Assembly (NCBI RefSeq): GCF_004683965.1
Contig: NZ_CP038436.1
Coordinates: 1,426,001-1,490,000 of the forward strand
Source: Nocardioides seonyuensis
GTDB taxonomy: Bacteria; Actinomycetota; Actinomycetes; Propionibacteriales; Nocardioidaceae
Length of the DNA: 64,000 nucleotides
Reading direction: 5' to 3'
Positions within the stretch are counted from its first letter, which is position 1; every line of letters begins with the position of its first letter. Below the pieces are notes generated by a model. That model was not told the DNA's origin. It worked only from the letters and a program-made list of their open reading frames with translations, and did not search any database. This document shows positions 817 to 26,047 of this stretch, piece after piece. Made by a program: the position numbers and the translations under genes.

Positions 817-846
817 GTGGTGCCTTTCGGAGGGTCAGTCGCACTG

Positions 847-885
847 GGCGCCCTCCATGGCACCGGCTGACGCCGTCCTGGCATC
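847..885 (-). promoter_or_regulatory. flhA leader with two GGA-loop hairpins (candidate CsrA sites)
   Basis: Read on the minus strand, the predicted flhA leader opens seven bases after the -10 element with stem GATGCC/GGCGTC (one G-T pair) around loop AGGAC at 869-885. Four bases later comes stem GGTGCC/GGCGCC (one G-T pair) around loop ATGGAG at 847-864. CsrA/RsmA proteins bind GGA, best as A-N-GGA, shown in hairpin loops. csrA is encoded at 26468. Binding is inferred, not shown. Confidence 0.45.
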
Positions 886-892
886 AGGGGAT

Positions 893-922
893 TCATCGGC
901 TGGTCGCGCCGGGTCCTGAGGG
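893..922 (-). promoter_or_regulatory. Sigma-28 type promoter of flhA, inside the 3' end of flhB
   Basis: On the minus strand the site reads CCCTCAG (922-916), 15 bases, then GCCGATGA (900-893). The last three bases are the flhB stop codon. It matches the five other flagellar promoters in this window in both elements and in exact spacing. The predicted transcript start is near 886, about 70 bases before the flhA GTG. Confidence 0.7.
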
Positions 923-2095
923 TTTCGTGGCCGGCAGTGCCGCGGGGCGTGCCGCGGGGCGTACGGCGGGGCGCGCAGCCTGGCGACGGCGGCGGGCGGC
1001 CAGTGCGACCTCGGGCAGGTCGTCCCCCCGGCGGGGAGTGCTGTGCTGCCCGCCCTTCGCTCCGGCGTTGCGCCGGGAGATGACGAACGCGAGGACCTGC
1101 GCGACCGCGGCGTAGAGCTCGGCCGGGATCTCCTGGCCCACGACGGTCGAGCGGTGCAGGGCTCGCGCGAGGGGCACGTCGCGCACCAGCGGCACCCCGT
1201 GCTCCGTAGCCCGCTCACGGATGCTCTGCGCCACCGCGCCGGCACCCCGGGCGACCACGCGGGGGGCGCCGTTCTCGGCCTCGTAGCGCAGGGCCACCGC
1301 GACGTGGGTGGGGTTGACGAGGACCACGTCCGCGGTGGGGATGTCGGCCATCATGCGGCTGCGGGCGGCGGCGAGCTGCCGCGCGCGGATCGCGCCCTTG
1401 ATCAGCGGGTCGCCCTCGGTCTGCTTGTGCTCGCGCTTGACCTCGTCCTTGGTCATCCGGGTCTGCTTGCCGGTGCGGCGGCGCATCACCGCGTAGTCGG
1501 CCGCGGCCATCAGGATCCCTGCGAACGCCACGTTGCGGATGAGCGCGAACACCTCGTCCTGGACGACGTCGAGCACTGCCGAGATGGGGACCAGCCCCCC
1601 GATGAGCGGCACCATCGACCGGATGGCGGCGTACACCACCAGACCCACCACCGCGCTCTTGATCAGCACCTTGGCGCCCTCCCACAGGGCGTGGCCGCCG
1701 AAGGCCCTCTTGGCACCCTTGAAGAGGTTCAAGCTCTTCAACGACGGCTTGGCACTCTTGGACGCGACGTAGAAGCCGCCCTGCGCCAGGGCCGCCGAGA
1801 CGCCGAGGACCATCACACCCGAGCCGAGGATGACGAGCGTGAGCATCACGTGCTCGAAGCCCCGTCCGAGGAGAGCCGTGGCGTCTGCCACCTCGACGTC
1901 CCCCTGCACGGTGAAGCAGTCGCGCATGAGCTCGGCGAGCGCGGTCAGCTCGTGCCTCATCAGCGGCGGGAGCGCCATCGCGAACGCGAGCAGCGCCGCC
2001 CAGCCCCCGAACTCCTGGGTGCGCGCGACCTGTCCCTCCTTGCGGGACTCCTTGCGCTTCTTGGCCGTGGGCTTCTCGGTCTTCTCCTCGGACAT
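893..2095 (-). CDS. flhB: Flagellar export gate switch protein FlhB
   Basis: FlhB sits in the membrane next to FlhA and switches export from rod/hook to filament substrates after cleaving itself. The N terminus MSEEKTEKPTAKKRKESRKE is typical. Hydrophobic segments follow, and the autocleavage motif NPTH is at residues 261-264. The protein is 400 aa. Its last 55 or so residues are a low-complexity Arg/Pro/Ala tail beyond the usual domain, and the DNA coding that tail carries the flhA promoter. It lies three bases downstream of fliR in the fliM-to-flhB operon. Confidence 0.97.
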   Translation of the reverse strand: MSEEKTEKPTAKKRKESRKEGQVARTQEFGGWAALLAFAMALPPLMRHELTALAELMRDCFTVQGDVEVADATALLGRGFEHVMLTLVILGSGVMVLGVSAALAQGGFYVASKSAKPSLKSLNLFKGAKRAFGGHALWEGAKVLIKSAVVGLVVYAAIRSMVPLIGGLVPISAVLDVVQDEVFALIRNVAFAGILMAAADYAVMRRRTGKQTRMTKDEVKREHKQTEGDPLIKGAIRARQLAAARSRMMADIPTADVVLVNPTHVAVALRYEAENGAPRVVARGAGAVAQSIRERATEHGVPLVRDVPLARALHRSTVVGQEIPAELYAAVAQVLAFVISRRNAGAKGGQHSTPRRGDDLPEVALAARRRRQAARPAVRPAARPAALPATKPSGPGATSR

Positions 2096-2098
2096 CGC

Positions 2099-2872
2099 TC
2101 ACCCCCCGCCCACGAGCGTCCACTGGGCCTCGTTGGCCAGGTCGACGAGACGGGCGACGGCCTCCGGGAGCACCGGGAACGACAGCCCCAGCAGGAGCAG
2201 CGTGAGCCCGATCTTGGCGGGAAACATCACGTTGATGGCGTTGAGCTGGGGCGCCACCTTGGTGAGCATCGCCAGCCCGAGGTCGGCGACGAAGAGGACC
2301 GCCACCAGCGGCAGCGCGATCTGCACGGCGGTGAGGAAGAACATCCCGAACGCCGTGATCATCACGTGGGCCGCACCCTCGATCTCGGGCGACTCCCCCA
2401 GTGGCATCAGGTCGAAGGTCCGCAGCAGGCCACCGAGCACGAGGAGGTGGCCGCCGGAGGCGAAGAGCAGCATCACCGCCAGCATCTGGTGCATCTTCCC
2501 GAAGACGGTGTTCATGTTCATCGAGAGCGGGTCGAAGCCCTGGGCGAGCTGGAAGCCGCCGAACGTGTCCACCAGGGAGCCGGCAGTGGCGATGGCGGCG
2601 AGCAGCATGTACGTCACCAGGCCCAGGGCGGACCCGATGACGACCTGGGTCAGCGTCGTGACCAGGAGCTCGCCGGTCCCGGTCGGGATCGAGCCACCCT
2701 CGACCGAGGGCACCACCGCGAACGCCAGTCCCAGGGAGAGCACCACCTTCGCCGGCAGCGGAACCGACCGACCGGCGAAGGGCGGCACCAGGGCGAGCCA
2801 GGCGCCGATCCGCACCGAGGCCAGCAGGTAGGCCAGCAGCGGCTCGCCGGCGATGCTCAGGGTCAGGCCCAC
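2099..2872 (-). CDS. fliR: Flagellar export gate protein FliR
   Basis: FliR is a polytopic membrane protein of the export gate core, forming a channel with FliP and FliQ. The 257 aa are almost entirely hydrophobic. They include the family stretch LAQGFDPLSMNMNTVFGKMH and a C-terminal Gly-rich end. It is placed between fliQ and flhB with three-base gaps on both sides, the usual fliPQR-flhB order. No unusual feature is seen. Confidence 0.95.
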   Translation of the reverse strand: MGLTLSIAGEPLLAYLLASVRIGAWLALVPPFAGRSVPLPAKVVLSLGLAFAVVPSVEGGSIPTGTGELLVTTLTQVVIGSALGLVTYMLLAAIATAGSLVDTFGGFQLAQGFDPLSMNMNTVFGKMHQMLAVMLLFASGGHLLVLGGLLRTFDLMPLGESPEIEGAAHVMITAFGMFFLTAVQIALPLVAVLFVADLGLAMLTKVAPQLNAINVMFPAKIGLTLLLLGLSFPVLPEAVARLVDLANEAQWTLVGGG

Positions 2873-2875
2873 GGG

Positions 2876-3145
2876 TCAGCCCAGCAGGGTCGGGAGCAGG
2901 GCGAAGAGGTCCTGGGTGAAGTCGACCAGGGTCCGCAGCATCCAGCTCCCCGAGATCAGCAGGGCGATACCCACGCCGACGAGCTTGGGCACGAAGGCGA
3001 GGGTGAACTCCTGGATCTGCGTCATCGACTGGAAGAGCGAGATGGTGAAGCCGATGACCAGCGACGTCACGAGGATCGGCGCGGACAGCTTCAGCGCGAC
3101 CAGCATGGTCTGCAGGGCGATGTTGATGACGGTGGTGTCGGTCAT
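2876..3145 (-). CDS. fliQ: Flagellar export gate protein FliQ
   Basis: An 89-aa protein with two transmembrane helices around a short polar loop, the usual size and shape for FliQ. The family-typical TQIQEFTLAFVPK follows the first helix. It forms the export channel with FliP and FliR. It lies between fliP (six-base gap) and fliR (three-base gap), so translation is probably coupled. Confidence 0.95.
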   Translation of the reverse strand: MTDTTVINIALQTMLVALKLSAPILVTSLVIGFTISLFQSMTQIQEFTLAFVPKLVGVGIALLISGSWMLRTLVDFTQDLFALLPTLLG

Positions 3146-3151
3146 CGCGGC

Positions 3152-4015
3152 CTACTGATAGCTGGAGACGACGGAGGTGATGACAAGTCCCCACCCGTCG
3201 ACCAGCACGAAGAGGAGCAGCTTGAAGGGCAGCGACACCATGACCGGCGGCATCATCATCATGCCGAGCGCCATCAGGGCACCGCTGATGACGATGTCGA
3301 TCACCAGGAAGGGGATGAAGATGACGAAGCCGATGATGAACGCCTGCTTGAGCTCGCTCAGGATGAACGCCGGCACGAGGGTCGCCATCGACACGTCCTC
3401 CCGGTTCTCGGGGAGCTCGCGCTCGGCGACGTTGGTCAGCAGCCGCAGCTCCTCGTCGCCGGTCTGGCCAAGCATGAAGTCGCGCAGCGGCTCGACCCCG
3501 GAGTCGTAGGCCCGCGACGCGGTCTTGTCACCGTCGAGGAAGGGCTGCACGCCCTTGTCGTTCACCTCGCCGAGCACCGGCGCCATGATGAACAGCGAGA
3601 GGAACAGCGCGAGGCCGGCGAGCACCTGGTTGGGCGGGATGCCCTGGAGGCCGAGCGCGTTGCGGGTCAGGCCCAGCACGATGAGCACCTTGGTGAAGCT
3701 GGTGCAGGTGAGCAGGATCGCGGGCAGCAGCGACAGCAGCGAGAGCGCGAGGATCACCGTGACCGGCGTTCCGGGCTTGTCGGTCAGGCCGTCCAGCTCG
3801 ATGGTCACCGAGCTGTCCCCGCCCGTGCCCGGAGTCCGTGGCCCCCGGGGGCCACGCGGACCGTCCGGACCCACGAGGTCGGAGGCGCTGGGGTGTACGA
3901 CGACCGCGACGGACGAGCCGGCCGGCGCGGCCTGGGCGGGGGTCGCCAGGGGACCGAGCGAGAGGAACAGGCCGGCGAAGAGCGCGACGAGGAGACCCGA
4001 GAGGAGGCGGTTCAC
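3152..4015 (-). CDS. fliP: Flagellar export gate protein FliP with a Gly-Pro rich periplasmic insert
   Basis: FliP forms the core of the export channel. A cleavable signal peptide ends near AQAAP (residues 28-32). A variable segment containing GPRGPRGPR follows, then the conserved membrane region with LTCTSFTKVLIVLGLTRNAL and the C-terminal block MGMMMMPPVMVSLPFKLLLF. At 287 aa it is longer than many FliP proteins because of the 40-odd residue linker before the first conserved helix. The start overlaps the fliO stop by four bases (ATGA). Confidence 0.96.
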   Translation of the reverse strand: MNRLLSGLLVALFAGLFLSLGPLATPAQAAPAGSSVAVVVHPSASDLVGPDGPRGPRGPRTPGTGGDSSVTIELDGLTDKPGTPVTVILALSLLSLLPAILLTCTSFTKVLIVLGLTRNALGLQGIPPNQVLAGLALFLSLFIMAPVLGEVNDKGVQPFLDGDKTASRAYDSGVEPLRDFMLGQTGDEELRLLTNVAERELPENREDVSMATLVPAFILSELKQAFIIGFVIFIPFLVIDIVISGALMALGMMMMPPVMVSLPFKLLLFVLVDGWGLVITSVVSSYQ

Positions 4016-4449
4016 GAGGCTCGGTCCTTGGCTGCGGCCAACGCCTGCCGCCAGGTCTGGGGTGAGAGCAGGGAGCCGTTGAGGGGTCCGGCCTGGGCGC
4101 CGGCGCCCGAGCCGACCGGCTTGCGGCTGTTCGCGAGCGGGACCTGGATCGCGTCGTCCTCGAGGGCGACGTCCTCGGTCTCGAGAGCCACCGTCGTGAG
4201 CTCCAGCTCGTCGGGGTCCAGCTCGGTCAGCAGGCTGACCTGGTGGTCGGTGGTGCCCACGACGAGCACGCGGCTGCCGACGGTGATGACGGCGACCGAG
4301 GAGCTGCGGGAGAGCGGCTGGCGGTGCAGCACCTGCACCGGAGCGCCGGCGCGGCCGCCGTACCGCTTGCCCATGAAGCGGGCGAGCAGCAGCATCAGGC
4401 CGACGACGACCGCCAGGGAGGCGACCAGTCGGATGATCAGCTCGAGCAC
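4012..4449 (-). CDS. fliO: Flagellar biosynthesis protein FliO
   Basis: A 145-aa protein with one N-terminal transmembrane helix (about residues 5-24) followed by a cytoplasmic beta-rich domain containing RQPLSRSSSVAVITVGSRVL and VGTTDHQVSLL, as in FliO/FliZ proteins. FliO helps assemble the FliP ring. It is one base downstream of fliN and overlaps fliP by four bases. FliO is poorly conserved, so the call rests on both pattern and position. Confidence 0.9.
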   Translation of the reverse strand: MLELIIRLVASLAVVVGLMLLLARFMGKRYGGRAGAPVQVLHRQPLSRSSSVAVITVGSRVLVVGTTDHQVSLLTELDPDELELTTVALETEDVALEDDAIQVPLANSRKPVGSGAGAQAGPLNGSLLSPQTWRQALAAAKDRAS

Positions 4450-4450
4450 G

Positions 4451-5206
4451 TCAGCCGACAGCTGTCTCGTCGAGGATCTCGGTCACCCGCAGACCGAAGT
4501 TCTCGTCGACGACGACGACCTCACCACGTGCGATCAGGCGACCGTTGACGAGGAGGTCGGCGGGACTGCCGGCCGCGCGGTCGAGCTCGAGGACGGCACC
4601 CGGGGAGAGGGCGAGGAGCTCGCGGACCGTGAGGTGGGTCCGGCCGAGCTCGACGGTGACCTCCATGTCGACGCCGTGCAGCATCTCGATGCCGCGGCTG
4701 GCCGCCATGCCCTGGGCCGAGCCCATCGCGGGCGACTGCAGCACGGGGGGGACGCCGCCGGACTCGACGGCTGCCGCCGAGGCGGTCGCGGCGTCGGAGA
4801 CCAGCAGCGCGCCGGCGGGCGTACCGCCGCCGAGGAGCGGGACCAGCGCGAACGAGCCGCCGATCTCGGCGCCCACCTGGTCGAGGGAGACTTCGCGAGC
4901 GGTGCCGCACGAGGCTCCGAGGGCCGCGGCAGCCGCATCGAGGGCAGGCTGGGTGGCGGCCGCCAGGTCGAGACCGCCCATCGGGCTGGCCGCCAGCGCC
5001 TCGACGAGCTCGGCGCCGACGAGGACCGCCACGCGGGGGGCACCCGGCAGGAGCAGCTCGGCCACGGCAGCACCGGCGTACTCGGCGACAGCAGCGGCGT
5101 CGCCCACGACGGGCGCGCCGGCCACCAGCTGGGTCGGCGCGGGGAGCACCGCCGCGACGGCCTCGGCCGCTGCGCTGGTGACGGACTCGGGGAGGGTGGT
5201 GGTCAT
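4451..5206 (-). CDS. fliN: Flagellar C-ring protein FliN with a long N-terminal domain
   Basis: The C-terminal 75 residues, from about 172 (MLHGVDMEVTVELGRTHLTV), form a SpoA/FliN domain of the switch complex. They include LSPGAVLELDRAAGSPADL and the end VDENFGLRVTEI. The N-terminal 170 residues are Ala-rich and may be a degenerate CheC/FliY-like domain, as in FliY of Bacillus; I cannot see the CheC phosphatase motif. The protein is 251 aa, against about 140 for a minimal FliN. Its ATG overlaps the fliM stop (ATGA). Confidence 0.92.
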   Translation of the reverse strand: MTTTLPESVTSAAAEAVAAVLPAPTQLVAGAPVVGDAAAVAEYAGAAVAELLLPGAPRVAVLVGAELVEALAASPMGGLDLAAATQPALDAAAAALGASCGTAREVSLDQVGAEIGGSFALVPLLGGGTPAGALLVSDAATASAAAVESGGVPPVLQSPAMGSAQGMAASRGIEMLHGVDMEVTVELGRTHLTVRELLALSPGAVLELDRAAGSPADLLVNGRLIARGEVVVVDENFGLRVTEILDETAVG

Positions 5207-6159
5207 GCGTTCTCCTTGGACGTGCTGACGACGAGCGCCGCCAGCCGCGTGCCGTGGGTGCCGGGGGTGGCGTGGGCAAAGGTGGTGTCGCCGACCATGA
5301 CGTCCAGGGGCGCGGTCGACGGGTGGGAGAGCCGCAGCACGTCGCCGACGGCGAGGCTGCTCAGGGTGTCGGGGTCCAGGCGGGTCGGGCGGAAGCGGAC
5401 GGCGGCCTCGACAGGGACGCCGCGGAAGCGCCGGTCCACCTGCTCGGCGGCCAGCGCACGCTGGTCACGCTCGCGCGACGAGACGGGCGAGGGGGCAGCC
5501 GAGCGGACCAGGTGCGGGTGCAGGCCGGTGAAGGGCAGGGCCAGCGTCACGCGGTGGCTGCGCTCCTTGATGACCAGGTCGAAGGACGCCACGACCATCG
5601 TGTCGGACGGGCCGGCGACCTGGGCCAGCTGCGGGCTGTACTCGACCCCGATGCGCTGGGCGTCGGCCTCGACGATGGCGGCGAGGCTGTACTGCAGCTC
5701 GCCGAGGACACGGTCGAGCAGGCTCTGCACGACGGCGCTCTCGATGTCGGTGAGGGGGCGCAGCGGCTGCTCGTCCGCGCCCGGCCCTCCGAGCATGTGG
5801 TCGATGGTGCTCATCACCGCGGGCAGCGGCAGGTTGAGCAGCCCGAGGCCGGCGATCGGCTCGGCCGAGAACTTCACCAGGTAGGTGGTCGGGTCGAGCG
5901 TGTCGACGTACTCCGCGTACTGCTGCTGGGCGACGCCGAGGAGCTGGGTCGTGCAGACGGTGCGGAGCGCGGCCGTGAAGACGGTCGCCGACTGGCGCGC
6001 GAAGCTGTCCAGCGTCACCTGGAGCGTGCGGGAGTGCTCGCGGGAGAGCTGGATGGGGCGCCGGAAGTCATAGGGGGTCGGCTCCGCACCCGAGCCGGCG
6101 CGGCGGCGTGCTCGGGCGTCGCCGTACGACGTGCGGCGGGAGGAGTCGAGGAGCGTCAC
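5203..6159 (-). CDS. fliM: Flagellar motor switch protein FliM
   Basis: FliM forms the middle of the C-ring. The central domain starts at YDFRRPIQLSREHSRTL and contains YVDTLDPTTYLVKF and the loop SLMEP-like NLPLPAVMSTIDHMLGGPG. A C-terminal SpoA domain ends at residue 318. The extreme N terminus is Arg/Ala/Ser-rich and lacks the EIDALL motif that binds CheY-P in most FliM proteins. GTG at 6159 has no Shine-Dalgarno and lies exactly seven bases after a sigma-28 type -10 element, so the mRNA is probably leaderless. First gene of the fliM-N-O-P-Q-R-flhB operon. Confidence 0.96.
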   Translation of the reverse strand: MTLLDSSRRTSYGDARARRRAGSGAEPTPYDFRRPIQLSREHSRTLQVTLDSFARQSATVFTAALRTVCTTQLLGVAQQQYAEYVDTLDPTTYLVKFSAEPIAGLGLLNLPLPAVMSTIDHMLGGPGADEQPLRPLTDIESAVVQSLLDRVLGELQYSLAAIVEADAQRIGVEYSPQLAQVAGPSDTMVVASFDLVIKERSHRVTLALPFTGLHPHLVRSAAPSPVSSRERDQRALAAEQVDRRFRGVPVEAAVRFRPTRLDPDTLSSLAVGDVLRLSHPSTAPLDVMVGDTTFAHATPGTHGTRLAALVVSTSKENA

Positions 6160-6166
6160 GAGTCCC

Positions 6167-6196
6167 GTATCGGCCGCGGCGGCATGGACCTGAGGG
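6167..6196 (-). promoter_or_regulatory. Sigma-28 type promoter of the fliM operon (leaderless)
   Basis: Minus strand: CCCTCAG (6196-6190), 15 bases, GCCGATAC (6174-6167). Seven bases separate the -10 element from the GTG of fliM, so transcription should start at or next to the start codon. It lies in the 69-base gap between the fliL stop and fliM. Confidence 0.7.
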
Positions 6197-6228
6197 ATCC
6201 GCGCCCCGAACCGGACGGGTGAGTGGCG

Positions 6229-6669
6229 TCACTGGGTGACGAAGTCGGTGAAGTACACCTCCATCACGTCGCCGTGGTAGTCCTCGTGCAGAGCCTTCTC
6301 CAGCTTGTGCTTGTACTCCTCGCGGGTGTCCGACTTGACCAGGTCGGCGTGGTCGGCGCCGCTGAACAGGTCGATCACCGTGTCGAGCGCCGCGCTGCCG
6401 TCGACCTCGTGCGCGTCGGCCGTGAGCTGGAGGGCCACTCCGATCCGGAGGTAGTGGCCGCCGGCCAGGTTGACCTGGATCGCCTCCAGGGTGACGACCT
6501 CGCCCGCGACCGGCTCGGCGGCAGCTCCGCTCGGCTTGAGGAAGAACCACCAGCCCGCCGCCCCGGCGACGAGCAGCGCGACGACGATGATGATGAGCTT
6601 CTTCTTCTTGCCGCCCTTCGCCTCGTCCGCCGTCTCCGGCTCCGCTGGGCGGGTCATCGTGGTGCTCAT
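6229..6669 (-). CDS. fliL: Flagellar basal body-associated protein FliL
   Basis: A 146-aa single-pass membrane protein. A Lys-rich cytoplasmic start (GGKKKK) precedes a transmembrane helix at about residues 26-44, and the extracellular FliL domain follows with GGHYLRIGVALQL and DVMEVYFTDFVTQ at the C terminus. FliL rings surround the stator and support its function. Its ATG overlaps the motB stop (ATGA), so it belongs to the flbD-motA-motB-fliL operon. Confidence 0.94.
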   Translation of the reverse strand: MSTTMTRPAEPETADEAKGGKKKKLIIIVVALLVAGAAGWWFFLKPSGAAAEPVAGEVVTLEAIQVNLAGGHYLRIGVALQLTADAHEVDGSAALDTVIDLFSGADHADLVKSDTREEYKHKLEKALHEDYHGDVMEVYFTDFVTQ

Positions 6670-7565
6670 GACATTCCTCCGTCGATCTCTGGCTGGATGC
6701 TGGGGATGATGACCGGCCCGCCCGCGGGGGCGTCGTCCAGGAGCTCGCGGGCAGCAGCCGGCAGGTCGGAGAGGACGACGATGTCCACGCGCTTGTTCAC
6801 CCGCTGGGAGCCGGGCTTCGCGGGGTCGACGAGCGGGACCTCGTGGCCGAAGGCGGAGGCGCTGAGCCGCTTGCCGGGGATGCCGCCCCTCTCGTTGAGG
6901 TGGCGCAGCACCTCGATCGCCCGCGCCGAGGAGAGGTCCCAGTCGGTGGCGAAGTACTTGGGCTTCACGGGCACCTGGTTGGTGTGGCCGTCGATGCGCA
7001 GGTCCTCGTCGGCGCGCGAGAGCACGGGCGTGATCACGTCCAGGACCCGACGGCCACGACTGCTCAGCTCGGCCCGGTTGGGCTCGAAGACCACGTGCCG
7101 CGAGGTGAGGCTCAGGACGAGACCGCGCTCGTCGATGAGGCGCGTCACGTCGTCCTGCAGGCCGGCGCGCCGCAGGGCGGTGTCGAGCTCCTGGCCCAGC
7201 TGCTCGAGCCGGTCGCGCTCTGTCTTGGCGTCGGCCTCCACCCTCCGCTGGGCGGCCAGGGCCTTCTTCGCCTGCTCGGCGAGGGTGGTCGAGCCGCCGA
7301 AGTTCTCGGCGCGCACAGGAGCGACCGCCGAGGAGCCGGGGTGGTCCATGGTCGAGCTCGATCCCTGCATCACCGAGGTCGACTGCCCGAAGCCCGCGGC
7401 GAGCCCCGACTTGAGCTCGTTGAACTTCTTCTCGTCCACCGCGCTCATGGCGAACATGACGATGAAGAGCACCATCAGCAGCGTCACCATGTCGGCGTAG
7501 GTGACCAGCCACCGCTCGTGGTTCTCGTGCTCCTCATGGATCTCGGGCCGCTTCCTGGCTCCCAT
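6666..7565 (-). CDS. motB: Flagellar stator protein MotB
   Basis: MotB anchors the stator to peptidoglycan and carries the proton-binding Asp. From ATG at 7565 the 299-aa protein starts MGARKRPEIHEEHENHERWL. A single transmembrane helix has the key Asp in TYADMVTLLMVLF. The C-terminal OmpA-like domain has DGHTNQVPV and NKRVDIVVLSD. A longer frame opens at 7598, but the start at 7565, one base after the motA stop, fits the family better. The proton rather than sodium type is likely but unproven. Confidence 0.95.
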   Translation of the reverse strand: MGARKRPEIHEEHENHERWLVTYADMVTLLMVLFIVMFAMSAVDEKKFNELKSGLAAGFGQSTSVMQGSSSTMDHPGSSAVAPVRAENFGGSTTLAEQAKKALAAQRRVEADAKTERDRLEQLGQELDTALRRAGLQDDVTRLIDERGLVLSLTSRHVVFEPNRAELSSRGRRVLDVITPVLSRADEDLRIDGHTNQVPVKPKYFATDWDLSSARAIEVLRHLNERGGIPGKRLSASAFGHEVPLVDPAKPGSQRVNKRVDIVVLSDLPAAARELLDDAPAGGPVIIPSIQPEIDGGMS

Positions 7566-7566
7566 G

Positions 7567-8337: not shown

Positions 8338-8609
8338 CAGTGAACCCCCTCGGGCGTCGAGTCGGCGGAGACTGCGGAGAGGTGCGAGCGGCCGGCCGCG
8401 GGGCGTGCGTCGTCGGGCTGGGTGCTGCCCGCGATGATGCGGCTGCGCCAGGCGCACACACGCGAGACGATCTCGTCCATCGGCTCCATGACGACGTACT
8501 TCTTGTCGTCCACGAGCGTGACGATCGTGTCCGGGGTGCTGTCGAGTCGCTCGATCAGGTCGGCGTTCAGCACGAACGCCGTCCCTGAGAGTCGGGTCAA
8601 CAAGATCAT
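8337..8609 (-). CDS. flbD: Small flagellar protein of the FlbD family
   Basis: A 90-aa protein beginning MILLTRLSGTAFVLNADLIE, with TPDTIVTLVDDKKYVV, the FlbD-family core found next to motA in many Gram-positive flagellar clusters. The molecular role is not established. The last 35 residues are variable. It is the first gene of the flbD-motA-motB-fliL operon. Its Shine-Dalgarno-like AGGG lies in the loop of a small hairpin that matches the CsrA consensus, so its translation may be controlled. Confidence 0.85.
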   Translation of the reverse strand: MILLTRLSGTAFVLNADLIERLDSTPDTIVTLVDDKKYVVMEPMDEIVSRVCAWRSRIIAGSTQPDDARPAAGRSHLSAVSADSTPEGVH

Positions 8610-8613
8610 TTCG

Positions 8614-8658
8614 GCACCATCCCTGTGCGGTGTGACGAGACCCGTCCATGGGTCTCGT
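8614..8658 (-). promoter_or_regulatory. flbD leader with two GGA-loop hairpins (candidate CsrA sites)
   Basis: Minus strand: a perfect 9-bp stem ACGAGACCC/GGGTCTCGT with loop ATGGAC (8635-8658) starts six bases after the -10 element. A second stem GCAC/GTGC with loop AGGGATG (8614-8628) lies four bases before the ATG. The segment ACAGGGATG equals the core of the CsrA SELEX consensus ACARGGAUG as I remember it, and its AGGG is the likely Shine-Dalgarno. Two sites, one covering the ribosome site, is the classical repression layout. Confidence 0.55.
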
Positions 8659-8664
8659 GTCTCT

Positions 8665-8694
8665 TCATCGGTCGTGGTCGCGGCGACCTGAGGG
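8665..8694 (-). promoter_or_regulatory. Sigma-28 type promoter of the flbD-motA-motB-fliL operon
   Basis: Minus strand: CCCTCAG (8694-8688), 15 bases, ACCGATGA (8672-8665). The predicted start is near 8658, at the foot of the leader hairpin. It is separated from flgE by the terminator at 8711-8747. Confidence 0.7.
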
Positions 8695-8710
8695 AACGCC
8701 GCAGAAATGC

Positions 8711-8747
8711 CGGACGCCCCGACCGGACTCTTCCGGCGGGGCGTCCG
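8711..8747 (-). terminator. Terminator after flgE
   Basis: A perfect 10-bp inverted repeat CGGACGCCCC/GGGGCGTCCG, with further pairing of CCGG inside the loop, begins nine bases after the flgE stop codon. There is no run of T, as is common for actinobacterial terminators. It closes the long flgB-to-flgE operon. Confidence 0.75.
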
Positions 8748-8755
8748 TGCGCGGG

Positions 8756-9595: not shown

Positions 9596-9620
9596 GTCGG
9601 TGGTCCTTTCAGTCGCGGCG

Positions 9621-10121: not shown

Positions 10122-10132
10122 GGGATCCCTCC

Positions 10133-15805: not shown

Positions 15806-17397
15806 GACCGCTCCACCAGCCAGCCGCGCAGGAGGGCAGCGACTTCATCCGGCTGGCGCTCGACCAGGGCGGCGAGCTCCTCGCGCATCTCCGTCTCGGC
15901 GCTCGACGGGACGGGTGCGGAGGAGAGCTGCAGCGCTGCCTCGGCGTCGAGGCGCTGCTGGGCAGCGAGGGCGGCACGGTCGGCCTGCTCCTGGCGAAGC
16001 TGCTCGACGACGTAGGACGTCGCCTCCTCGCGGGCGCTGCTGTTCTTGCGCGAACGGCGCCAGACGAGCCCCAGGAGCAGGAGCACGACGCCACCCAGCA
16101 CGCCGTTGCGGATCCAGGTGTTGCGGGCTGCAGCCGCGTCGGCCTCCTTGGCCGCCGCGAGGGCTGCCAGGTTGGCCTCCTCGACGGAGTTGTCGAAGGG
16201 CACGACGGAGGTCTGGATGGAGTCGCCGCGCTCGGTGTCGAGCCCGATCGCCGCGGCGACCAGGTCCTCGATCTCGGCCGGGTCGACAGCGACCTCGGCG
16301 TTGGTGTCGACGACGACGGCCGCGTGGAGGTTCTCGACCGAGCCCGGGGCGGCCTCGGCCTGCTCCACGACCTTGTCCACGCCGTTCTCGCGCACCGTGG
16401 CGGAGTTGTTGTAGCTGCCGTCAGCGCCCCCGCCGTTGGTCTCCAGCTGGGCGTCGGGCCCGACGACGCCGCTCGCCTGCCCGGCACCGGCCCCGCCCGA
16501 GTAGGTCTCCTTCTGCTTCGACTCAGCCAGGGTGGGGACCCGCTGCTGCCGGCCGTAGGTCGTGGACTCGGTGACCTTGCGGTCGAAGTCGAGCACCGCG
16601 GTGACCTGGACGGTGCTGTTGCCGGGGCCGAAGACCCGGTCGAGCATCGACTGCACCTTGCCGTTGAGCTGGTCCTGGTACTCCTGGACCTGACGGTACT
16701 GACCGCTCGCGGAGCCGTTGGCTCCCTCGCCGTCGGTCAGCACGCGGCCGGCCGAGTCGGTCACGGTGACCTTCGAGGGGTCGAGCCCGTCGATGCTGGA
16801 GGCGACCAGGTGGACGACGCCCTGGACCTGGTCGGCGCCGAGCTCGGTGCCGGCGTGGGTGTCGACGAGGATCGAGGCCGTGGCCGGCTCCTGCTCCTCG
16901 GCGAAGACCTGCTTGGGCGGCAGGGCGAGGTGGACCACGGCGGTGTCGACGCCGTCGATTGCCTCGACCGTGGCGGCGAGCTCGCCCTCCATCGCGCGCT
17001 TGAAGTCGGTCTGCTCCTTGAACTGCGAGGTCGAGATGTCCTGGCCGTCGAGCAGGGCGTAGCCACCCTCGCTGCTCTCGGAGGGCAGCCCCTCGCCGCT
17101 GAGGGCGATCCGGGTGGAGTAGACGTCCTTGCGCGGCACCGAGATCGTGCCGCCACCACCACCGATCTCGTACGGCACGCCGTCGGCGTCGAGCTGCTCG
17201 ACGACCGCGGCGGCGTCCTCGGACGACAGGTTCGTGTAGAGAGGGGCGTAGGACGGTGCCGACGCCCAGCGGAACACCATGAAGGCGGCGAGCAGCAGGG
17301 CCAGGGTCCCGACGACGGCAACGACCTTCTGGCCGGCGCTGAAGGCCTTGAAGGAGCTGAGGGGCCCCTCGAGCGCGCGCGTGACTCCGGTTCTCAT
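15802..17397 (-). CDS. fliF: Flagellar MS-ring protein FliF
   Basis: FliF forms the membrane ring on which the basal body is built. The 531-aa protein has a first transmembrane helix near residues 25-45 ([20 protein letters not shown]), ring-building motif regions including [20 protein letters not shown], a second helix near residues 425-445 ([15 protein letters not shown]), and a C-terminal tail for FliG binding. It overlaps fliE by four bases. Confidence 0.97.
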
Positions 17398-17711
17398 CCG
17401 ACCTGCATCCGCATGATCTCGGTGAACGCCTCGATGGCCTTGTTGCGCACGGCGACGGTCAGCTTGGTGGCGACCTCGGCCTCGGTCGCGGCGAGGGTGT
17501 AGTCGTGGATGTTGGGCAGGGTGCCGGAGGCGGCCTGGACGGCCAGCGAGTCAGCCTTGTCCTGCAGGCCCTCCAGGCGCTCGATGCCGTCGACCAGCAT
17601 GCTGCCGAACTCGCTGCTGGGGCCGCTGGTCGCCGCGGGCGCCGCCGACGGCGTCGCGACGGGTGCGACGTAGGGGGTGAACCCGATGCTCTCGATGCCG
17701 CTGACGCTCAT
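17394..17711 (-). CDS. fliE: Hook-basal body protein FliE
   Basis: A 105-aa helical protein linking the MS ring to the rod. The conserved block is [20 protein letters not shown] with the C-terminal [18 protein letters not shown]. It sits between flgC and fliF with four-base overlaps on both sides, the standard flgB-flgC-fliE-fliF order. Confidence 0.95.
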
Positions 17712-18103
17712 CGTCCCTGTCCGATCTGGATCGCTGCCGAGTAGGTGTCCTGGGCGGTCTTGGTGACGGTGACCGAGGCCTGGAAGCCGCGCTGGGCCTG
17801 GATGAGCGAGCTCATCTGGACGGTCATGTCGATGTCGGGCCGGCGGACCATTCCGTCGGCGTCCGCCAGCGGGTGGTCGGGGGCGTGGGTCAGCACGCCC
17901 TCGGCGTCGCTGAGGCGGATGCCGCTGACGTCGACGCCGCCCTCGGGACGGGCGGTCGCGACCACCATCTGGCCCTGGAACGCGTCCTCAGCGGTCGAGG
18001 TGACCGTGTTCGCGTTGGAGATGTTGTGGGCCAGCGAGTCGAGCCAGGTCTGGTGCATGCCCAGGCTGCTGTTGGCGATGCGCAGCATGTCGAAGGCGCC
18101 CAT
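17708..18103 (-). CDS. flgC: Proximal rod protein FlgC
   Basis: A 131-aa rod protein starting [20 protein letters not shown], with [13 protein letters not shown] and the C-terminal axial motif [20 protein letters not shown]. The start at 18103 is set by the one-base TGATG overlap with flgB; the longer open frame upstream is the shadow of flgB. Ordinary length. Confidence 0.95.
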
Positions 18104-18462
18104 CAGGCCGCACCTGCTGCGGTCCGGACCAGCGAGAAGCGGTCGGACACCGCGCGCGTCATCATCTGGTACTGGAACTGCGTCTGGACCGCCGAGAGCG
18201 TCTCCTGGCGCAGGTCGACGTTGTTGCCGTCGGTGCCGGCCGGGGCGTTGGACGGAAGCGTCGACGCGCTCACCCCGGAGGTGGGCATCTCGCCGCGCTG
18301 GAGGGCCGCGCTCAGGCTCGACTCGAAGTCGACGCTGACCGCCCGGAAGCCGGGGGTGTCGACGTTCGCGATGTTGTCGGCGATCACGCTCTGACGGGTC
18401 GCGAGGCCGTCGAGGGTCGTCGCAAGGACGGACGACACGGCATCTGGCATGCCAAAGGACAC
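18103..18462 (-). CDS. flgB: Proximal rod protein FlgB
   Basis: A 119-aa rod protein with the axial motif ATRQSVIADNIANVDTPGFR and the C-terminal TQFQYQMMTRAVSDRFSLVR. GTG at 18462 follows GGAGGAG by four bases; that Shine-Dalgarno lies in a small hairpin with loop TGGA. It is the first gene of the long flgB-to-flgE operon. Confidence 0.95.
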   Translation of the reverse strand: MSFGMPDAVSSVLATTLDGLATRQSVIADNIANVDTPGFRAVSVDFESSLSAALQRGEMPTSGVSASTLPSNAPAGTDGNNVDLRQETLSAVQTQFQYQMMTRAVSDRFSLVRTAAGAA

Positions 18463-18466
18463 GGGG

Positions 18467-18524
18467 TCTCCTCCAGGAGATCAGTGCCGGTCCTTCGGCG
18501 GGGGGGTGCGAGCGTTCCTTGCTC
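18467..18524 (-). promoter_or_regulatory. flgB leader with three GGA-loop hairpins (candidate CsrA sites)
   Basis: Minus strand, in order: GAGC/GCTC with loop AAGGAAC (18510-18524), which begins seven bases after the -10 element; GCCG/CGGC with loop AAGGAC (18486-18499); and TCTCC/GGAGA with loop TGGA (18467-18480), which contains the Shine-Dalgarno GGAGGAG. The stems are short (4-5 bp), so each alone is weak. The repeated GGA-in-loop pattern is the evidence. Confidence 0.45.
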
Positions 18525-18531
18525 TCGGTCC

Positions 18532-18561
18532 GAATCGGCGTCCCGTTGACGTGGCTGAGGG
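18532..18561 (-). promoter_or_regulatory. Sigma-28 type promoter of the flgB operon
   Basis: Minus strand: CCCTCAG (18561-18555), 15 bases, GCCGATTC (18539-18532). The predicted transcript start is near 18525, giving a leader of about 63 bases. It drives rod, MS-ring, switch, ATPase and hook genes. Confidence 0.7.
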
Positions 18562-18581
18562 AAACCCGCCGTGTTCTTCGA

Positions 18582-18603
18582 GGTCGGGACCATGGTCGGG
18601 ACC
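18582..18603 (-). promoter_or_regulatory. Paired GGTC-NN-GACC sites upstream of the flgB promoter
   Basis: Minus strand: GGTCCCGACC, AT, GGTCCCGACC. Each 10-mer is itself a dyad, GGTC-N2-GACC. The pair ends 20 bases before the -35 element. The same type of pair (GGTCCAGACC twice) lies upstream of the flgN promoter at 23099-23131, so a shared activator site is plausible. Confidence 0.4.
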
Positions 18604-18633
18604 CGCACCACCCGATCGGGCTATACGAGGTGA

Positions 18634-18951
18634 CTAGGCCGAGACGTCGAAGTACGCCGGCAGCCCCATCGGCTGGGAGGCGCGGGGGTACGGCGAGCCG
18701 TCCAGCTCGGCCTTCGCGGTCGCGGCCGCGCGCTCCAGCTGGGCCCTCACGAGCTGCTGGCGCTCGACGAGGCGTTGCGCCCGCTCGAGGAGGTCGTCGG
18801 GGAGCGGTCCCCGGACGACGGGCGGTCGCCACCTCAGGGCACGCGGGTCGTGCGTGGGATCGACGCCGCGCTCGAGGAGCCGGACGGCGTCGTCGAGGTC
18901 GCGCTCGAGGAGCTCGAGCGCCTGCGTCCAGGTGCGGTGCTCGGGGTTCAC
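18634..18951 (-). CDS. Small helical flagellar protein, FliT-like by position
   Basis: A 105-aa protein read from GTG at 18951, which overlaps the fliS stop (GTGA). It is mostly helical and charged at the start (WTQALELLERDLDDAVRLLE) with a second helix LLERAQRLVERQQLVRAQLE, and ends in a Pro-rich tail. I do not recognise a named domain. The slot after fliD and fliS is that of the FliD chaperone FliT, so that is the working guess. Confidence 0.65.
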   Translation of the reverse strand: MNPEHRTWTQALELLERDLDDAVRLLERGVDPTHDPRALRWRPPVVRGPLPDDLLERAQRLVERQQLVRAQLERAAATAKAELDGSPYPRASQPMGLPAYFDVSA

Positions 18952-19325
18952 GCGGACTTCGCGTTGTCCATGGCCGCCTGGCGCCAGGCGTCCGCCAGAC
19001 CGGTGACCAGGTCGAGGCAGTGGGTGGTCAGCGCGGCGTCGCGCTGCACGTTGGCCTGCACGAGCTGGACGAGGAGGTGGGAGTAGAGGCTGTTCAGCAT
19101 CTCCGCGCCGTCCCACAGTTCGGGTCGCAGGCTGCCCTGCAGCTCGGCCACGATGTCCTGGGCGTGGGTGAGGGCACCATGGGCGGCCGGGTGGTTGCCG
19201 GCCTCCTGGGCCTCGAGGGCCCGGCGGCAGTCCAGGACCAGCCTGTCGTACAGCATCACGAGCAGTCGCGAGGGGCTCGCGGTCTGCACCGAGGCCTGCA
19301 GGTAGGGGTTCGTGGTGGTGTTCAT
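18948..19325 (-). CDS. fliS: Flagellin export chaperone FliS
   Basis: A 125-aa helical protein beginning MNTTTNPYLQASVQTASPSR, then LLVMLYDRLVLDCRRALEAQ, the standard FliS start. It binds the C terminus of flagellin to prevent early assembly. It lies 12 bases after fliD. Ordinary length. Confidence 0.95.
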   Translation of the reverse strand: MNTTTNPYLQASVQTASPSRLLVMLYDRLVLDCRRALEAQEAGNHPAAHGALTHAQDIVAELQGSLRPELWDGAEMLNSLYSHLLVQLVQANVQRDAALTTHCLDLVTGLADAWRQAAMDNAKSA

Positions 19326-19337
19326 GGGGTGCCTTCC

Positions 19338-20693
19338 TTAGCTTCCCGATGATGACGCGAGGCTGGAGATCTGGCCGGCCAGCCACGAGGACTGGCTGTT
19401 CATCTGGCTCAGCGCGGTCTCGAGGGCGGTGAACTGGCGAGTGAGTGCGGTCCGTCGCAGCTCCAGTCGCAGGTCCCAGGCCTCGATGCCGTCGTTGAGC
19501 CTCTCGATCGTGCTGGTGCGGCCGGTGATGGCCTGGGTGAGCGTCCCGGTCGCCTTGTCGCTGGCGGCGGTGGCCACCTCGGCGACCCGGTCGAGGAACC
19601 CCGTCCCGTCGGCGGTGAGCCGCCGCTGCACGGCGTCCGGGTCGGCCTTGTAGGCCTCGCTCAGCTTGGCCTCGTCGAGGACCAGACGGCCGTTCTTGTC
19701 GGTCTGGATCCCCAGGGTGGAGAGGCTGGTGCCGTCGGTCGGGAAGACGGTGTCGAGGAGGCGGCCGCGCAGCTCGCGGACGCTGGAGTCACCGGCCAGC
19801 ATGCCCTTGGCCTTGGTCGCAGGGTTGTAGGAGGTGAGCGAGTCGATCTCCGTGAGCACGGAGTTGATGGCGTCGACGGCGGACTTCACCGACCGGATGG
19901 TGGCGGCCGGATCCAGTTTCAGCTCGATGTCGGCGAGGCCGGTGGCGGCTGCGCCGAGGGTGATGTCGACGCCGGGCACCAGGTCCTTGAACGTGTTGGT
20001 CGCCGAGGTGGCGACGATGCCACCGCCCACGGTGACCTGGGCGTCGCGGCCGACCCGGGTGCTCGCCCCACCGAGGATCGGTGAGGTCCCGTCGGCGGCG
20101 TCGCGGAGTGTGAAGTCTGACGAGGCACCGGTGGCGACCGACTCGACGACGAGGCGGAACTGGTCCTGGCCGGAGGCGTCGGCACCGACTCGTACGGCGG
20201 TGGCCCGAAGGCCGGTCTTGTTGGCGGGGTCGTTGATCGCGGTGACCAGGCCGCGGAGGGTGCCGTCGGTGGTCAGGTCCTGCGCCACCGTCCCGTCGAG
20301 CCGGTCGATCCTGACCGACGTCGGAACCGTGCCAGGAGCGTCGTAGCCCACGGCGCTGGCGTGCTCGAGCCGGTGGCTCAGAGCCGTGCGGTCGACCTGG
20401 ACGCTGAACGCCCCCGCCGCGGCGCTGGCCCCGACGGTGACGGTGACGTCCTTGAGGGAGGAGGTCGCGGTGAGCTTGCTCCACGCAGTCGGCTTGGCGA
20501 GGTCGGCGGCCGTGGTGGCCAGCGAGGCGAGGCGGCTGTTGAGGGTCTGCATCGCGTTGACGGCGCGCTGCTCGGTGCTCACCCGGGTCTGCATGCGCGA
20601 CTGGGGCACGGCCTCGAGCTGCATGAGCTGGTTGACGATCGAGACGGTGTCGAGTCCGCTCGCCAGTCCGCCGATGCTCGCGGATCCGCTCAT
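19338..20693 (-). CDS. fliD: Flagellar filament cap FliD
   Basis: FliD caps the filament and helps flagellin fold into place. The 451-aa protein starts MSGSASIGGLASGLDTVSIV with LMQLEAVPQSRM, both typical, and ends in a helical D0 domain (LRRTALTRQFTALETALSQM). GAGGAGG precedes the ATG closely. No sigma-28 match lies directly upstream, so it may depend on read-through from fliC. Confidence 0.95.
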   Translation of the reverse strand: MSGSASIGGLASGLDTVSIVNQLMQLEAVPQSRMQTRVSTEQRAVNAMQTLNSRLASLATTAADLAKPTAWSKLTATSSLKDVTVTVGASAAAGAFSVQVDRTALSHRLEHASAVGYDAPGTVPTSVRIDRLDGTVAQDLTTDGTLRGLVTAINDPANKTGLRATAVRVGADASGQDQFRLVVESVATGASSDFTLRDAADGTSPILGGASTRVGRDAQVTVGGGIVATSATNTFKDLVPGVDITLGAAATGLADIELKLDPAATIRSVKSAVDAINSVLTEIDSLTSYNPATKAKGMLAGDSSVRELRGRLLDTVFPTDGTSLSTLGIQTDKNGRLVLDEAKLSEAYKADPDAVQRRLTADGTGFLDRVAEVATAASDKATGTLTQAITGRTSTIERLNDGIEAWDLRLELRRTALTRQFTALETALSQMNSQSSWLAGQISSLASSSGS

Positions 20694-20731
20694 GATGCCT
20701 CCTCAGGACTGACGGGACATGCGTCCCGGAC

Positions 20732-20774
20732 GGACGACGGGCGGGCCAGGGGGGAGGGGGCCCACCCGTCGTCC
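20732..20774 (-). terminator. Terminator after flagellin fliC
   Basis: A 14-bp stem with one mismatch (GGACGACGGGCGGG against CCCACCCGTCGTCC in plus-strand reading) and a 15-base loop begins 35 bases after the fliC stop. A second small stem CGGGAC/GTCCCG lies at 20713-20728, before fliD. It probably limits read-through of the abundant fliC transcript into fliD. Confidence 0.7.
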
Positions 20775-20808
20775 ACGGGGGATGCTGGTTGCTCTAGCTG
20801 GCTAGTCG

Positions 20809-21987
20809 TCAGCGGAGCAGAGACAGCACACCCTGGGGGGCCTGGTTGGCCTGGGCGAGCATCGCGGTGCCCGCCTGCGACAGGATCTGCGCCCGAGTGA
20901 AGCTCATCATCTCCTGAGCCATGTCGGTGTCGCGGATCCGGCTCTCGGAGGCCGACAGGTTCTCGACGGCCACGTTGAGGTTGTTGATGGTGTGCTCGAA
21001 CCGGTTCTGCATGGCACCCAGGCCGGCGCGAGCGGTGGAGACGTTCTTGATCTGCGCGTCGACCGTCTTGATCGCGGCCTGGGCTCCGTCAGCGGTGCTG
21101 AAGTCCAGTCCGGTGCCGGGACCTGCGACGACCGCGGTGGACGCCGCGGCGCCCGTACCTGCGGCGGCGTGGGTGCCGGCGGCGGCGCCACCGAACACGG
21201 CCGCGCCGTCCTTGGCGGTGACGACCAGCTGGTTGTCCTTGTTCACCGAGGCGCTGAGCTCCCCGGAGAACGCGGCGTCCTTGTTGAGGGCGTCAGCCAG
21301 CTCACCGACCGTCTTGTAGGTGCCAGCGGCACCCAGGTTGGCGGTGGTGATGGTGGTGTCGACGTTGTTGCCGCCCACGACACTGCGGGTGCTGAACGTC
21401 ATCGTGCCGGTCACGTCGGTCGGGGTGAGGACGTCCATGGTGGCACCGGTGGTGGGAGCGCTCAGGGTGTTGGAGATGCCCTTGACGTTCGCACCGGACA
21501 GGTCGACCGAGATGCGGCTGTTGGCGTCGCCGTCGGCACCGACCTGGAAGTGCATCGTGCCGGCGGAGCCGTCGAGCAGCTTGGCACCGTTGAAGTTGGT
21601 CGAGTCGCCGATCCGACCGAGCTCCTTGACGAGGCTGTCGGCCTCGGTCTTGATGTTGGCGCGAGCCTCGGTGTTGTTGCTGTCGTTGGCGCCCTGGACA
21701 CCCAGGTCACGCAGACGCTGCAGGATCGAGTGGACCTCGGTCAGCGCACCTTCTGCGGTCTGGACGACCGAGATGCCGTCCTGCGCGTTGCGGGCGGCGA
21801 CCTTGAGGCCACCGACCTGCGAGCGCAGGCCCTCGGAGATGGCCAGGCCGGCGGCGTCGTCGGCGGCCCGGTTGATGCGGAATCCGCTCGACAGCTTCTC
21901 GAGCGACTTGGACATCTGGCCCTGCGTGACCGACAGGTTGCGGTACGAGTTGAAGGCGTCGATGTTCTGGTTGATGCGGAGACCCAT
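20809..21987 (-). CDS. fliC: Flagellin FliC
   Basis: The filament subunit, 392 aa. The N-terminal D0/D1 reads MGLRINQNIDAFNSYRNLSV with LSSGFRINRAADDAAGLAIS and the TLR5-type stretch LQRLRDLGVQGAND. The C-terminal D1/D0 has RIRDTDMAQEMMSFTRAQIL and ends in LLR. The middle region (about residues 180-300) is variable. It is the only flagellin gene in the window. AAAGGA precedes the ATG. It is transcribed alone from a sigma-28 type promoter and followed by a strong terminator. Confidence 0.98.
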   Translation of the reverse strand: MGLRINQNIDAFNSYRNLSVTQGQMSKSLEKLSSGFRINRAADDAAGLAISEGLRSQVGGLKVAARNAQDGISVVQTAEGALTEVHSILQRLRDLGVQGANDSNNTEARANIKTEADSLVKELGRIGDSTNFNGAKLLDGSAGTMHFQVGADGDANSRISVDLSGANVKGISNTLSAPTTGATMDVLTPTDVTGTMTFSTRSVVGGNNVDTTITTANLGAAGTYKTVGELADALNKDAAFSGELSASVNKDNQLVVTAKDGAAVFGGAAAGTHAAAGTGAAASTAVVAGPGTGLDFSTADGAQAAIKTVDAQIKNVSTARAGLGAMQNRFEHTINNLNVAVENLSASESRIRDTDMAQEMMSFTRAQILSQAGTAMLAQANQAPQGVLSLLR

Positions 21988-22021
21988 GATGGATTCCTTT
22001 CCTAGGGAGTCTGATGGAGCT

Positions 22022-22041
22022 GGAGTCCGTCCGTGGACTCC
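22022..22041 (-). promoter_or_regulatory. fliC leader hairpin with ACGGAC loop (candidate CsrA site)
   Basis: Minus strand: a perfect 7-bp stem GGAGTCC/GGACTCC with hexaloop ACGGAC, starting ten bases after the -10 element. The Shine-Dalgarno region AGGAAAGGA (about 21995-22005) offers a second GGA site. The layout resembles the hag leader of Bacillus, where CsrA represses flagellin and FliW relieves it. Confidence 0.55.
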
Positions 22042-22051
22042 GTCGAGGTGC

Positions 22052-22081
22052 TGATCGGTCAGCCCCTCATTGGTCTGAGGA
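22052..22081 (-). promoter_or_regulatory. Sigma-28 type promoter of fliC
   Basis: Minus strand: TCCTCAG (22081-22075), 15 bases, ACCGATCA (22059-22052). The predicted start is near 22045, at the foot of the leader hairpin. As flagellin is the classical FliA target, this site anchors the reading of the other five. Confidence 0.75.
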
Positions 22082-23173: not shown

Positions 23174-23231
23174 GGATCTCGTGACAGTCAGCGACGCTGC
23201 CCGCTCGGGCACAGAGAGAGGAGGCTCCGCC

Positions 23232-26015: not shown

Positions 26016-26047
26016 TCGCCACGATGCACAGACCCACCAGGAGCGTC

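Follow-up and report, generated by a model that had tools for sequence, protein, structure and literature searches.

The closest described systems, as presented in the parts of the sources cited here, are four. In the Hag-FliW-CsrA system of Bacillus subtilis, csrA and fliW accompany the flagella, CsrA has a C-terminal extension of the kind bound by FliW, the flagellin leader has two CsrA sites, one of them on the Shine-Dalgarno sequence, and hag is the named flagellar target (PMC7652899, PMC6529632); a role of Bacillus CsrA related to small RNAs is named in the reference list of PMC7652899. In Campylobacter jejuni, CsrA binds many flagellar messenger RNAs (mRNAs) and FliW antagonises CsrA; two stem-loops of the flaA leader present ANGGA, one of them on the ribosome-binding site, and they are conserved through compensatory changes (PMC4894983). 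In Escherichia coli, CsrA protects the flhDC mRNA, which has two CsrA sites near its 5' end (PMC7652899). For Kineococcus radiotolerans, which has an actinobacterial flagellar island with csrA, a CsrA site overlapping the Shine-Dalgarno sequence of the flagellin mRNA was proposed in 2008 by similarity to one Bacillus site; the cited part of that report deals with flagellin only, and contains no hairpins, no other operons and no comparative test (PMC2587704). Here we analyse a window of 64,000 nucleotides (nt) from the 3.97 Mb genome of the soil actinobacterium Nocardioides seonyuensis (NZ_CP038436.1, positions 1,426,001 to 1,490,000; positions below are those of the window unless marked otherwise). 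It holds an island of flagellar genes, in which the leaders of flhA, flbD, flgB and fliC each begin with a hairpin that has GGA in its loop.

We take these hairpins to be RNA elements that would present CsrA sites, A-N-GGA loops mostly closed by a C-G pair, at the 5' ends of four flagellar mRNAs. With a probability of about 0.85, a conserved CsrA regulon, presumably under FliW, covers the export, motor, rod and filament operons. A first-pass annotation of this DNA had suggested such a wide CsrA-FliW regulon, and conserved hairpins in all four leaders lend it support, with CsrA binding itself predicted. That annotation had also contrasted the locus with Bacillus. The contrast stands in that hag is the named flagellar target there and four operons are concerned here; it overstates the novelty, because in C. 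jejuni CsrA and FliW are already known to control a broad set of flagellar genes (PMC4894983). Sites in the flagellin leader and a broad set of flagellar mRNAs are common to C. jejuni and this locus; the two differ in that flaA dominates there and flgB is not enriched in the data cited (PMC4894983), whereas here the flgB, flhA and flbD-mot leaders have conserved hairpins and flgB, in a different phylum, is the most regular leader over the class. The two flhDC sites of E. coli are placed as in flgB and flhA; flhDC, however, encodes a transcription factor, whereas the operons here are structural (PMC7652899). What appears to be new is the set of conserved CsrA-type hairpins on actinobacterial rod, export and motor leaders; among the open-literature matches listed, which mostly do not cover subscription papers, there is no report of CsrA targets among these operons.

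GGA-loop hairpins in four flagellar leaders

The elements under study are the following, with stems in base pairs (bp) and the evidence in brackets.

867..887, minus strand: flhA hairpin 1, 8 bp stem, CTGATGCC-AGGAC-GGCGTCAG (hairpin scan; consensus fold of 28 family leaders)
847..864, minus strand: flhA hairpin 2, 6 bp stem, loop ATGGAG (hairpin scan; consensus fold)
8635..8658, minus strand: flbD hairpin 1, 9 bp stem, ACGAGACCC-ATGGAC-GGGTCTCGT (hairpin scan; consensus fold of 52 distinct family leaders)
8614..8628, minus strand: flbD hairpin 2, 4 bp stem, loop containing the GGA of the Shine-Dalgarno sequence (hairpin scan; consensus fold)
18510..18524, minus strand: flgB hairpin 1, GAGC-AAGGAAC-GCTC, only 4 bp (hairpin scan; arms-only pattern in 105 of 113 leaders)
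18486..18499, minus strand: flgB hairpin 2, GCCG-AAGGAC-CGGC, 4 bp (hairpin scan; arms-only pattern in 105 of 113 leaders)
22022..22041, minus strand: fliC hairpin, 7 bp stem, GGAGTCC-ACGGAC-GGACTCC (hairpin scan; top match in the genome of model R1, whose training set includes this very hairpin)
21995..22003, minus strand: fliC Shine-Dalgarno sequence AGGAAAGGA, candidate second CsrA site (sequence; GGA-to-GGA spacing in relatives)

All four 5'-end hairpins claimed by the first-pass annotation are thus present where it had put them, on the minus strand, and the further GGA-loop stems, which it had claimed for three of the leaders, are seen in flhA, flbD and flgB. The claimed offset of 6-10 bases from the -10 element holds for flhA (7), flbD (8) and flgB (9) and fails for fliC, whose hairpin starts 12 nt past the final base of CCGAT. 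The fliC leader of the window has no second GGA hairpin; it has the GGA-bearing Shine-Dalgarno sequence instead. In the flhA leader (814-890, minus strand), the minimum-energy fold keeps hairpin 1, whereas GGUGCC, the 5' arm of hairpin 2, is paired with GGCACC immediately ahead of the start codon. In this one genome, such a pairing could mask the ribosome site and be an alternative to hairpin 2.

Such hairpins are rare in the window when the loop is held to the CsrA rule. When both strands (128,000 nt) are searched for loops of 5-7 nt that hold A-N-GGA or AGGA on stems of at least 6 bp, five are found, four of them within the 272 nt of the four leaders, where the rest of the window leads one to expect 0.002; with stems of at least 4 bp, seven of 30 fall in the four leaders (0.049 expected). 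Without the A-N-GGA rule GGA-loop stems are common, and occupy 73 distinct places of the window (74 lines; loops of 3-8 nt, stems of at least 6 bp). The folding energies of the flhA and flbD leaders have z scores of -3.6 and -2.1. Folding energy alone is weak evidence; the case rests on conservation.

Conservation in relatives and competing explanations

Conservation was followed in 245 genomes of the family (Nocardioidaceae) and in 394 genomes of the class (Actinomycetes). In the family, loci around FliF were read from 80 of the 82 other FliF-bearing genomes, together with 30 flhA loci, of which 28 yielded a leader; short contigs left fewer fliC and flbD leaders. The relatives named by FliF are mostly Nocardioides, plus a Marmoricola, an Aeromicrobium and an unclassified Propionibacteriales genome, and closely related genomes each count as separate leaders in the conservation counts. 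The shuffle test used 28/29 flhA, 52/61 flbD, 69/79 flgB, 53/57 fliC and 39/49 flgN leaders, the others having no promoter match or being too short, and its control is the mean of 40 dinucleotide shuffles. A GGA hairpin of at least 5 bp is found in 20/28 flhA (shuffle mean 2.3), 36/52 flbD (2.4), 45/69 flgB (3.5) and 43/53 fliC leaders (3.1), far above the shuffle means in all four; shuffling was among the checks suggested with the first-pass claim. The permuted cores AGG and GAG are far less frequent than GGA in the same leaders. RNAalifold, run on MAFFT alignments made blind to the stems, recovers the consensus hairpins in the flhA, flbD, flgB and fliC leaders and no structure in the flgN leaders of the family; it also predicts further helices near the fliC and flgB start codons.

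Conservation of stem and loop had been set beforehand as the check on the hairpins, and it is seen: the pattern is kept in the family, and the arms of the fliC, flbD and flhA stems vary and covary around a central GGA that is invariant. In fliC, the seven stem pairs form in 44/52 to 52/52 sequences, both sides change at the outer five, and these switched state 6, 5, 5, 3 and 4 times on the FliF tree. Over family and class, 153 of 182 fliC, flbD and flhA leaders have an A-N-GGA loop on a stem of at least 4 bp, and the next three pairs beyond the required four form in 123, 112 and 105 of the 153 windows; each leader is represented there by its site with the longest stem, which mildly favours the outer pairs. 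The pooled covariation counts come from 45 of 48 windows picked for diversity and an inner stem of at least 4 bp, which biases the inner pairs.

The class sample adds 36 loci outside the family, with 30 shuffles per test. There, GGA hairpins of at least 5 bp are found in 29/34 flgB leaders (shuffle mean 3.7, maximum 9), 14/20 fliC leaders (2.4, maximum 6) and 1/11 flgN leaders (1.2, maximum 5). The pattern holds across the class sample for flgB and fliC; the flhA comparison covers the family. For flgB we used a pattern that specifies arms only, GAGC-N5..9-GCTC followed by GCC-N5..9-GG(C/T), and does not require GGA. It matches 105 of 113 leaders, 79/79 in the family (this genome included) and 26/34 outside it, and all 210 of the 210 loops so found hold GGA, 202 of them as A-N-GGA. 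Elsewhere in the 116 loci, the same pattern has GGA in both loops in 6 of 484 matches. The loop of flgB site 1 ranges from 5 to 9 nt in length while the GGA stays. Because the flgB arms vary little in the class, the flgB case rests on this invariant loop and not on covariation.

The sites come in pairs. In 105 flgB leaders the two GGAs lie 17-28 nt apart, at 18 or 19 nt in 56 of them. From the fliC hairpin GGA to the Shine-Dalgarno GGA, the median distance is 27 nt (range 19-69, in 72/77 leaders), and from the flbD hairpin GGA to the GGA at the Shine-Dalgarno sequence it is 23.5 nt (range 16-79, in 66/76 leaders). A CsrA dimer bridges sites 10-63 nt apart, according to the cited part of PMC7652899, and the flgB spacing thus suits one dimer. 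The second site is on the ribosome-binding site in fliC and flbD and not in flgB; in the flgB leaders of the family, the median distance from the end of hairpin 2 to the start codon is 30 nt (20-77).

csrA tracks flagella almost perfectly in the class. In the family sample, FliF is found in 83 of 245 genomes and csrA in 86, including 83/83 of the FliF-bearing ones. Of the 394 genomes in the class sample, 51 have FliF (15 of these are in the family sample too) and 56 have csrA, including 49/51 of the FliF-bearing ones, and the two exceptions are genomes 80% and 63% complete. csrA without FliF occurs in three family genomes (G100, G113 and G143) and in seven class genomes (G252, G343, G467, G523, G564, G567 and G577), four of which belong to one genus and have a lower-scoring csrA. 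The CsrA of the window has 82 residues, with a C-terminal extension, and aligns over residues 2-79 to the CsrA chain (chain D) of PDB entry 5dmb, which we take to be the CsrA-FliW complex. It keeps L4, presumably an RNA-binding residue, and R44. The latter is an RNA-binding residue of CsrA according to the cited part of PMC7652899.

Several observations weigh against a CsrA regulon of this width. The fliC and flgB leaders have unremarkable folding energies (z -0.4 and +0.6, respectively), and for this we dropped folding energy of single leaders as proof. The control flgN has a GGA hairpin of at least 5 bp in 8/39 family leaders (shuffle mean 2.0, maximum 6), with 5 for the permuted core AGG and 6 for GAG. 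Counts of G.U against A.C fail to separate RNA from DNA (4 vs 5 in fliC, 7 vs 10 in flbD hairpin 1, 22 vs 15 in flhA) and were not used as proof of RNA. Outside the family flbD is weak, with 7/15 leaders at 5 bp or more (shuffle mean 2.3, maximum 5) and 8/15 at 4 bp or more (5.2, maximum 9). Of the flgB leaders outside the family, 8/34 do not fit the arms-only pattern, whose arms were picked after inspecting the leaders, and these arms are nearly invariant in the class, which leaves weak covariation. Finally, no csrA-less flagellate of good completeness, sought as a negative control, was found in the 394 class genomes.

In another reading the dyads are operators in the DNA, placed directly behind the promoters, and the flagellar operons are controlled by a transcription factor that binds there. 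The dyads do adjoin the -10 element, the GAGC/GCTC arms are invariant in 38 aligned flgB leaders, themselves selected by those arms, and the G.U and A.C counts are compatible with this reading. Against such operators, the fliC, flbD and flhA arms vary and covary around a fixed GGA, the arms differ from operon to operon, the flgB arms are spaced 5 to 9 nt apart rather than at a fixed distance, and the flbD Shine-Dalgarno sequence has another such element on it; we consider this reading very unlikely. We hold it to be just as improbable that the hairpins stabilise the 5' ends of the mRNAs, or are features of the start site, with no need of CsrA and with GGA as a by-product. Their very 5' position and the strong flhA, flbD and fliC stems would suit that role; several stems, however, are just 4 bp, the flgN leader has the same promoter and no conserved hairpin, and GGA is kept in every one of the flgB loops found by arms alone while the other loop positions and the loop length vary. 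That the stems are a product of chance in GC-rich DNA can be given almost no credence. GGA-loop stems are generally common in the window, as the 73 places attest, whereas the A-N-GGA hairpins of the leaders are far above expectation and are kept in relatives, and both shuffles and permuted cores give much lower numbers in the four leaders.

A variant keeps CsrA binding and supposes that leaders other than that of flagellin react chiefly to a loss of FliW, or serve as a sink for CsrA, while their own genes are hardly regulated. In the C. jejuni results cited here, deletion of csrA changed FlaG, FlaB and FlgI little though their leaders bound CsrA, and loss of fliW lowered them (PMC4894983). The regular two-site layout of flgB over the class sample speaks for a function that is under selection in its own right, and the flgB leader of C. 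jejuni is not enriched in those results (1.6x and 0.7x; PMC4894983). We find this variant, which falls within the main reading, unlikely.

Island genes, promoters and limits of the regulon

In the island, Pfam identifies flhA, flbD, motA, motB, fliL, flgB, fliC, a FliA-like sigma factor, flgN, fliW and csrA. The presence of fliW and csrA in the same island, part of the first-pass claim, is borne out by their Pfam families, and fliW (PF02623) shares the island with flagellin (PF00669, PF00700). The genes and promoters that bear on the leaders are these.

1..816, minus strand: flhA, 5' part, FHIPEP export protein (Pfam PF00771)
895..920, minus strand: sigma28-like promoter of flhA, CTCA-N17-CCGAT (exact pattern match)
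8340..8609, minus strand: flbD (Pfam PF06289)
8667..8692, minus strand: sigma28-like promoter of flbD, with motA, motB and fliL then on the same strand (pattern match; MotA, MotB and FliL by Pfam)
18106..18462, minus strand: flgB, rod protein (Pfam PF00460)
18534..18559, minus strand: sigma28-like promoter of flgB (pattern match)
20812..21987, minus strand: fliC, flagellin (Pfam PF00669 and PF00700)
22054..22079, minus strand: sigma28-like promoter of fliC (pattern match)
22138..22977, minus strand: FliA-like sigma factor (sigma-70 regions 2, 3 and 4)
23146..23231, plus strand: flgN promoter and leader, of the shared promoter type and without a conserved GGA hairpin, the negative control (pattern match, shuffles, RNAalifold; FlgN by Pfam)
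26012..26434, plus strand: fliW (Pfam PF02623)
26468..26716, plus strand: csrA (Pfam PF02599; L4 and R44 kept)

The promoters of flhA, flbD, flgB, fliC and flgN all read CTCA-N17-CCGAT, a sequence that resembles the sigma28 consensus. The pattern has 47 sites in the genome, against 16 for the same pattern read backwards as a control. A looser form is found in 29/29 flhA, 52/61 flbD, 69/79 flgB, 53/57 fliC and 39/49 flgN leaders of the family, and is rare or missing in the family leaders of fliA (0/26), fliD (2/56), flgE (0/72), fliW (0/15) and csrA (0/32). A GGA hairpin of at least 5 bp lies in the 110 nt downstream of seven of the 47 promoter-like sites, those of flhA, flbD, fliC, cheA, a response regulator and two others; the flgB stems, at 4 bp, fall outside this count. 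FlgM (PF04316) was not found in this genome at E 0.001, though the island encodes a FliA-like sigma factor. FlgM is reportedly absent from the non-FlgFG actinobacterial classes (PMC10746217), and the class of this genome presumably counts among them.

The regulon excludes some flagellar operons, as the flgN leader has no conserved hairpins; by gene order, this leader should also serve fliW and csrA. The cheA leader (L255 4748-4819; genome 2308747-2308818) has a sigma28-like promoter and a hairpin GTACCC-ACGGAA-GGGTGC. We collected 30 CheA loci, 26 of them with a mapped start (this genome included); those of 50-57% identity may not be orthologues. The promoter pattern occurs in 22/25 other loci, in some doubtfully close to the mapped start, and a GGA hairpin of at least 4 bp between promoter and start in 0/25, one locus (L268) having a hairpin that overlaps the -10 element. 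As the hairpin is missing between promoter and start in these 25 loci, cheA was dropped from the regulon. About 1.7 Mb from the island, at L244 3423-3513 (genome 3216422-3216512), a sigma28-like promoter and a hairpin CCGCC-ACGGAT-GGCGG precede the start of a single-domain response regulator, which is followed by a GAF/PAS histidine kinase.

A genome scan with model R1, in which 150 of 1758 first-look candidates were scored, lists 11 matches, three of them in leaders (fliC, flhA hairpin 2 and the response regulator); the other eight sit within long open frames and are probably coding DNA. This list cannot serve as a census, since the flbD hairpin, which has 23.5 bits with R1 in the window, is missing from it.

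In a phylum sample, FliF is found in 51 of 296 genomes, 48 of them outside the class, and 12 flgB leaders could be read there. A-N-GGA hairpins of at least 5 bp occur in the last 150 nt of 4/12 (L290, L291, L294 and L297, of which L291 is AT-rich). The two-hairpin model R2 has its best two matches in 48 kb at the flgB leaders of L296 (18.7 bits, E 0.009; the stem at the match is only 4 bp) and L290 (18.3 bits, E 0.011). These 12 leaders, taken without a shuffle control, are only a lead that the CsrA link to the rod operon may predate the class.

Possible control of flagellar assembly

In each leader, a single CsrA dimer would be expected to bind a pair of sites, in most cases separated by 17-30 nt: the hairpin and the Shine-Dalgarno GGA in fliC and flbD, and the two hairpins in flgB and flhA. 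As the second site of fliC and flbD is on the ribosome-binding site, repression of translation is expected there, which is how Bacillus hag is controlled. The hairpins of flgB and flhA are all upstream of the ribosome-binding site, and CsrA might either repress or protect these mRNAs; since flgB hairpin 2 ends 20-77 nt before the start codon, the ribosome site is probably left free. This, together with the E. coli flhDC mRNA, which has two sites near its 5' end and is protected by CsrA, suggests that CsrA control may have one sign in early operons and another in late ones. The product of fliW, the neighbour of csrA, would lift CsrA control while flagellin is exported.

A further step, tentative and in our view doubtful, is that in flagellated Actinomycetes at least five flagellar leaders share one sigma28-type promoter and the order of assembly is set post-transcriptionally. 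CsrA at the 5' end would protect or activate the early mRNAs of flgB and flhA and block the ribosome sites of fliC and flbD, and FliW would reverse this once export of flagellin starts. If so, the customary hierarchy of transcription would give way to one RNA-binding protein, and the control would act in a group where FlgM seems missing. CsrA-FliW is best known as a flagellin homeostat; with two-site leaders on the rod, export and motor operons, it would become a controller of much of the machine. The leaders would then be a set of CsrA sites that is old and has been replicated in nature, and they would allow a direct test of whether the order of flagellar assembly can be set after transcription.

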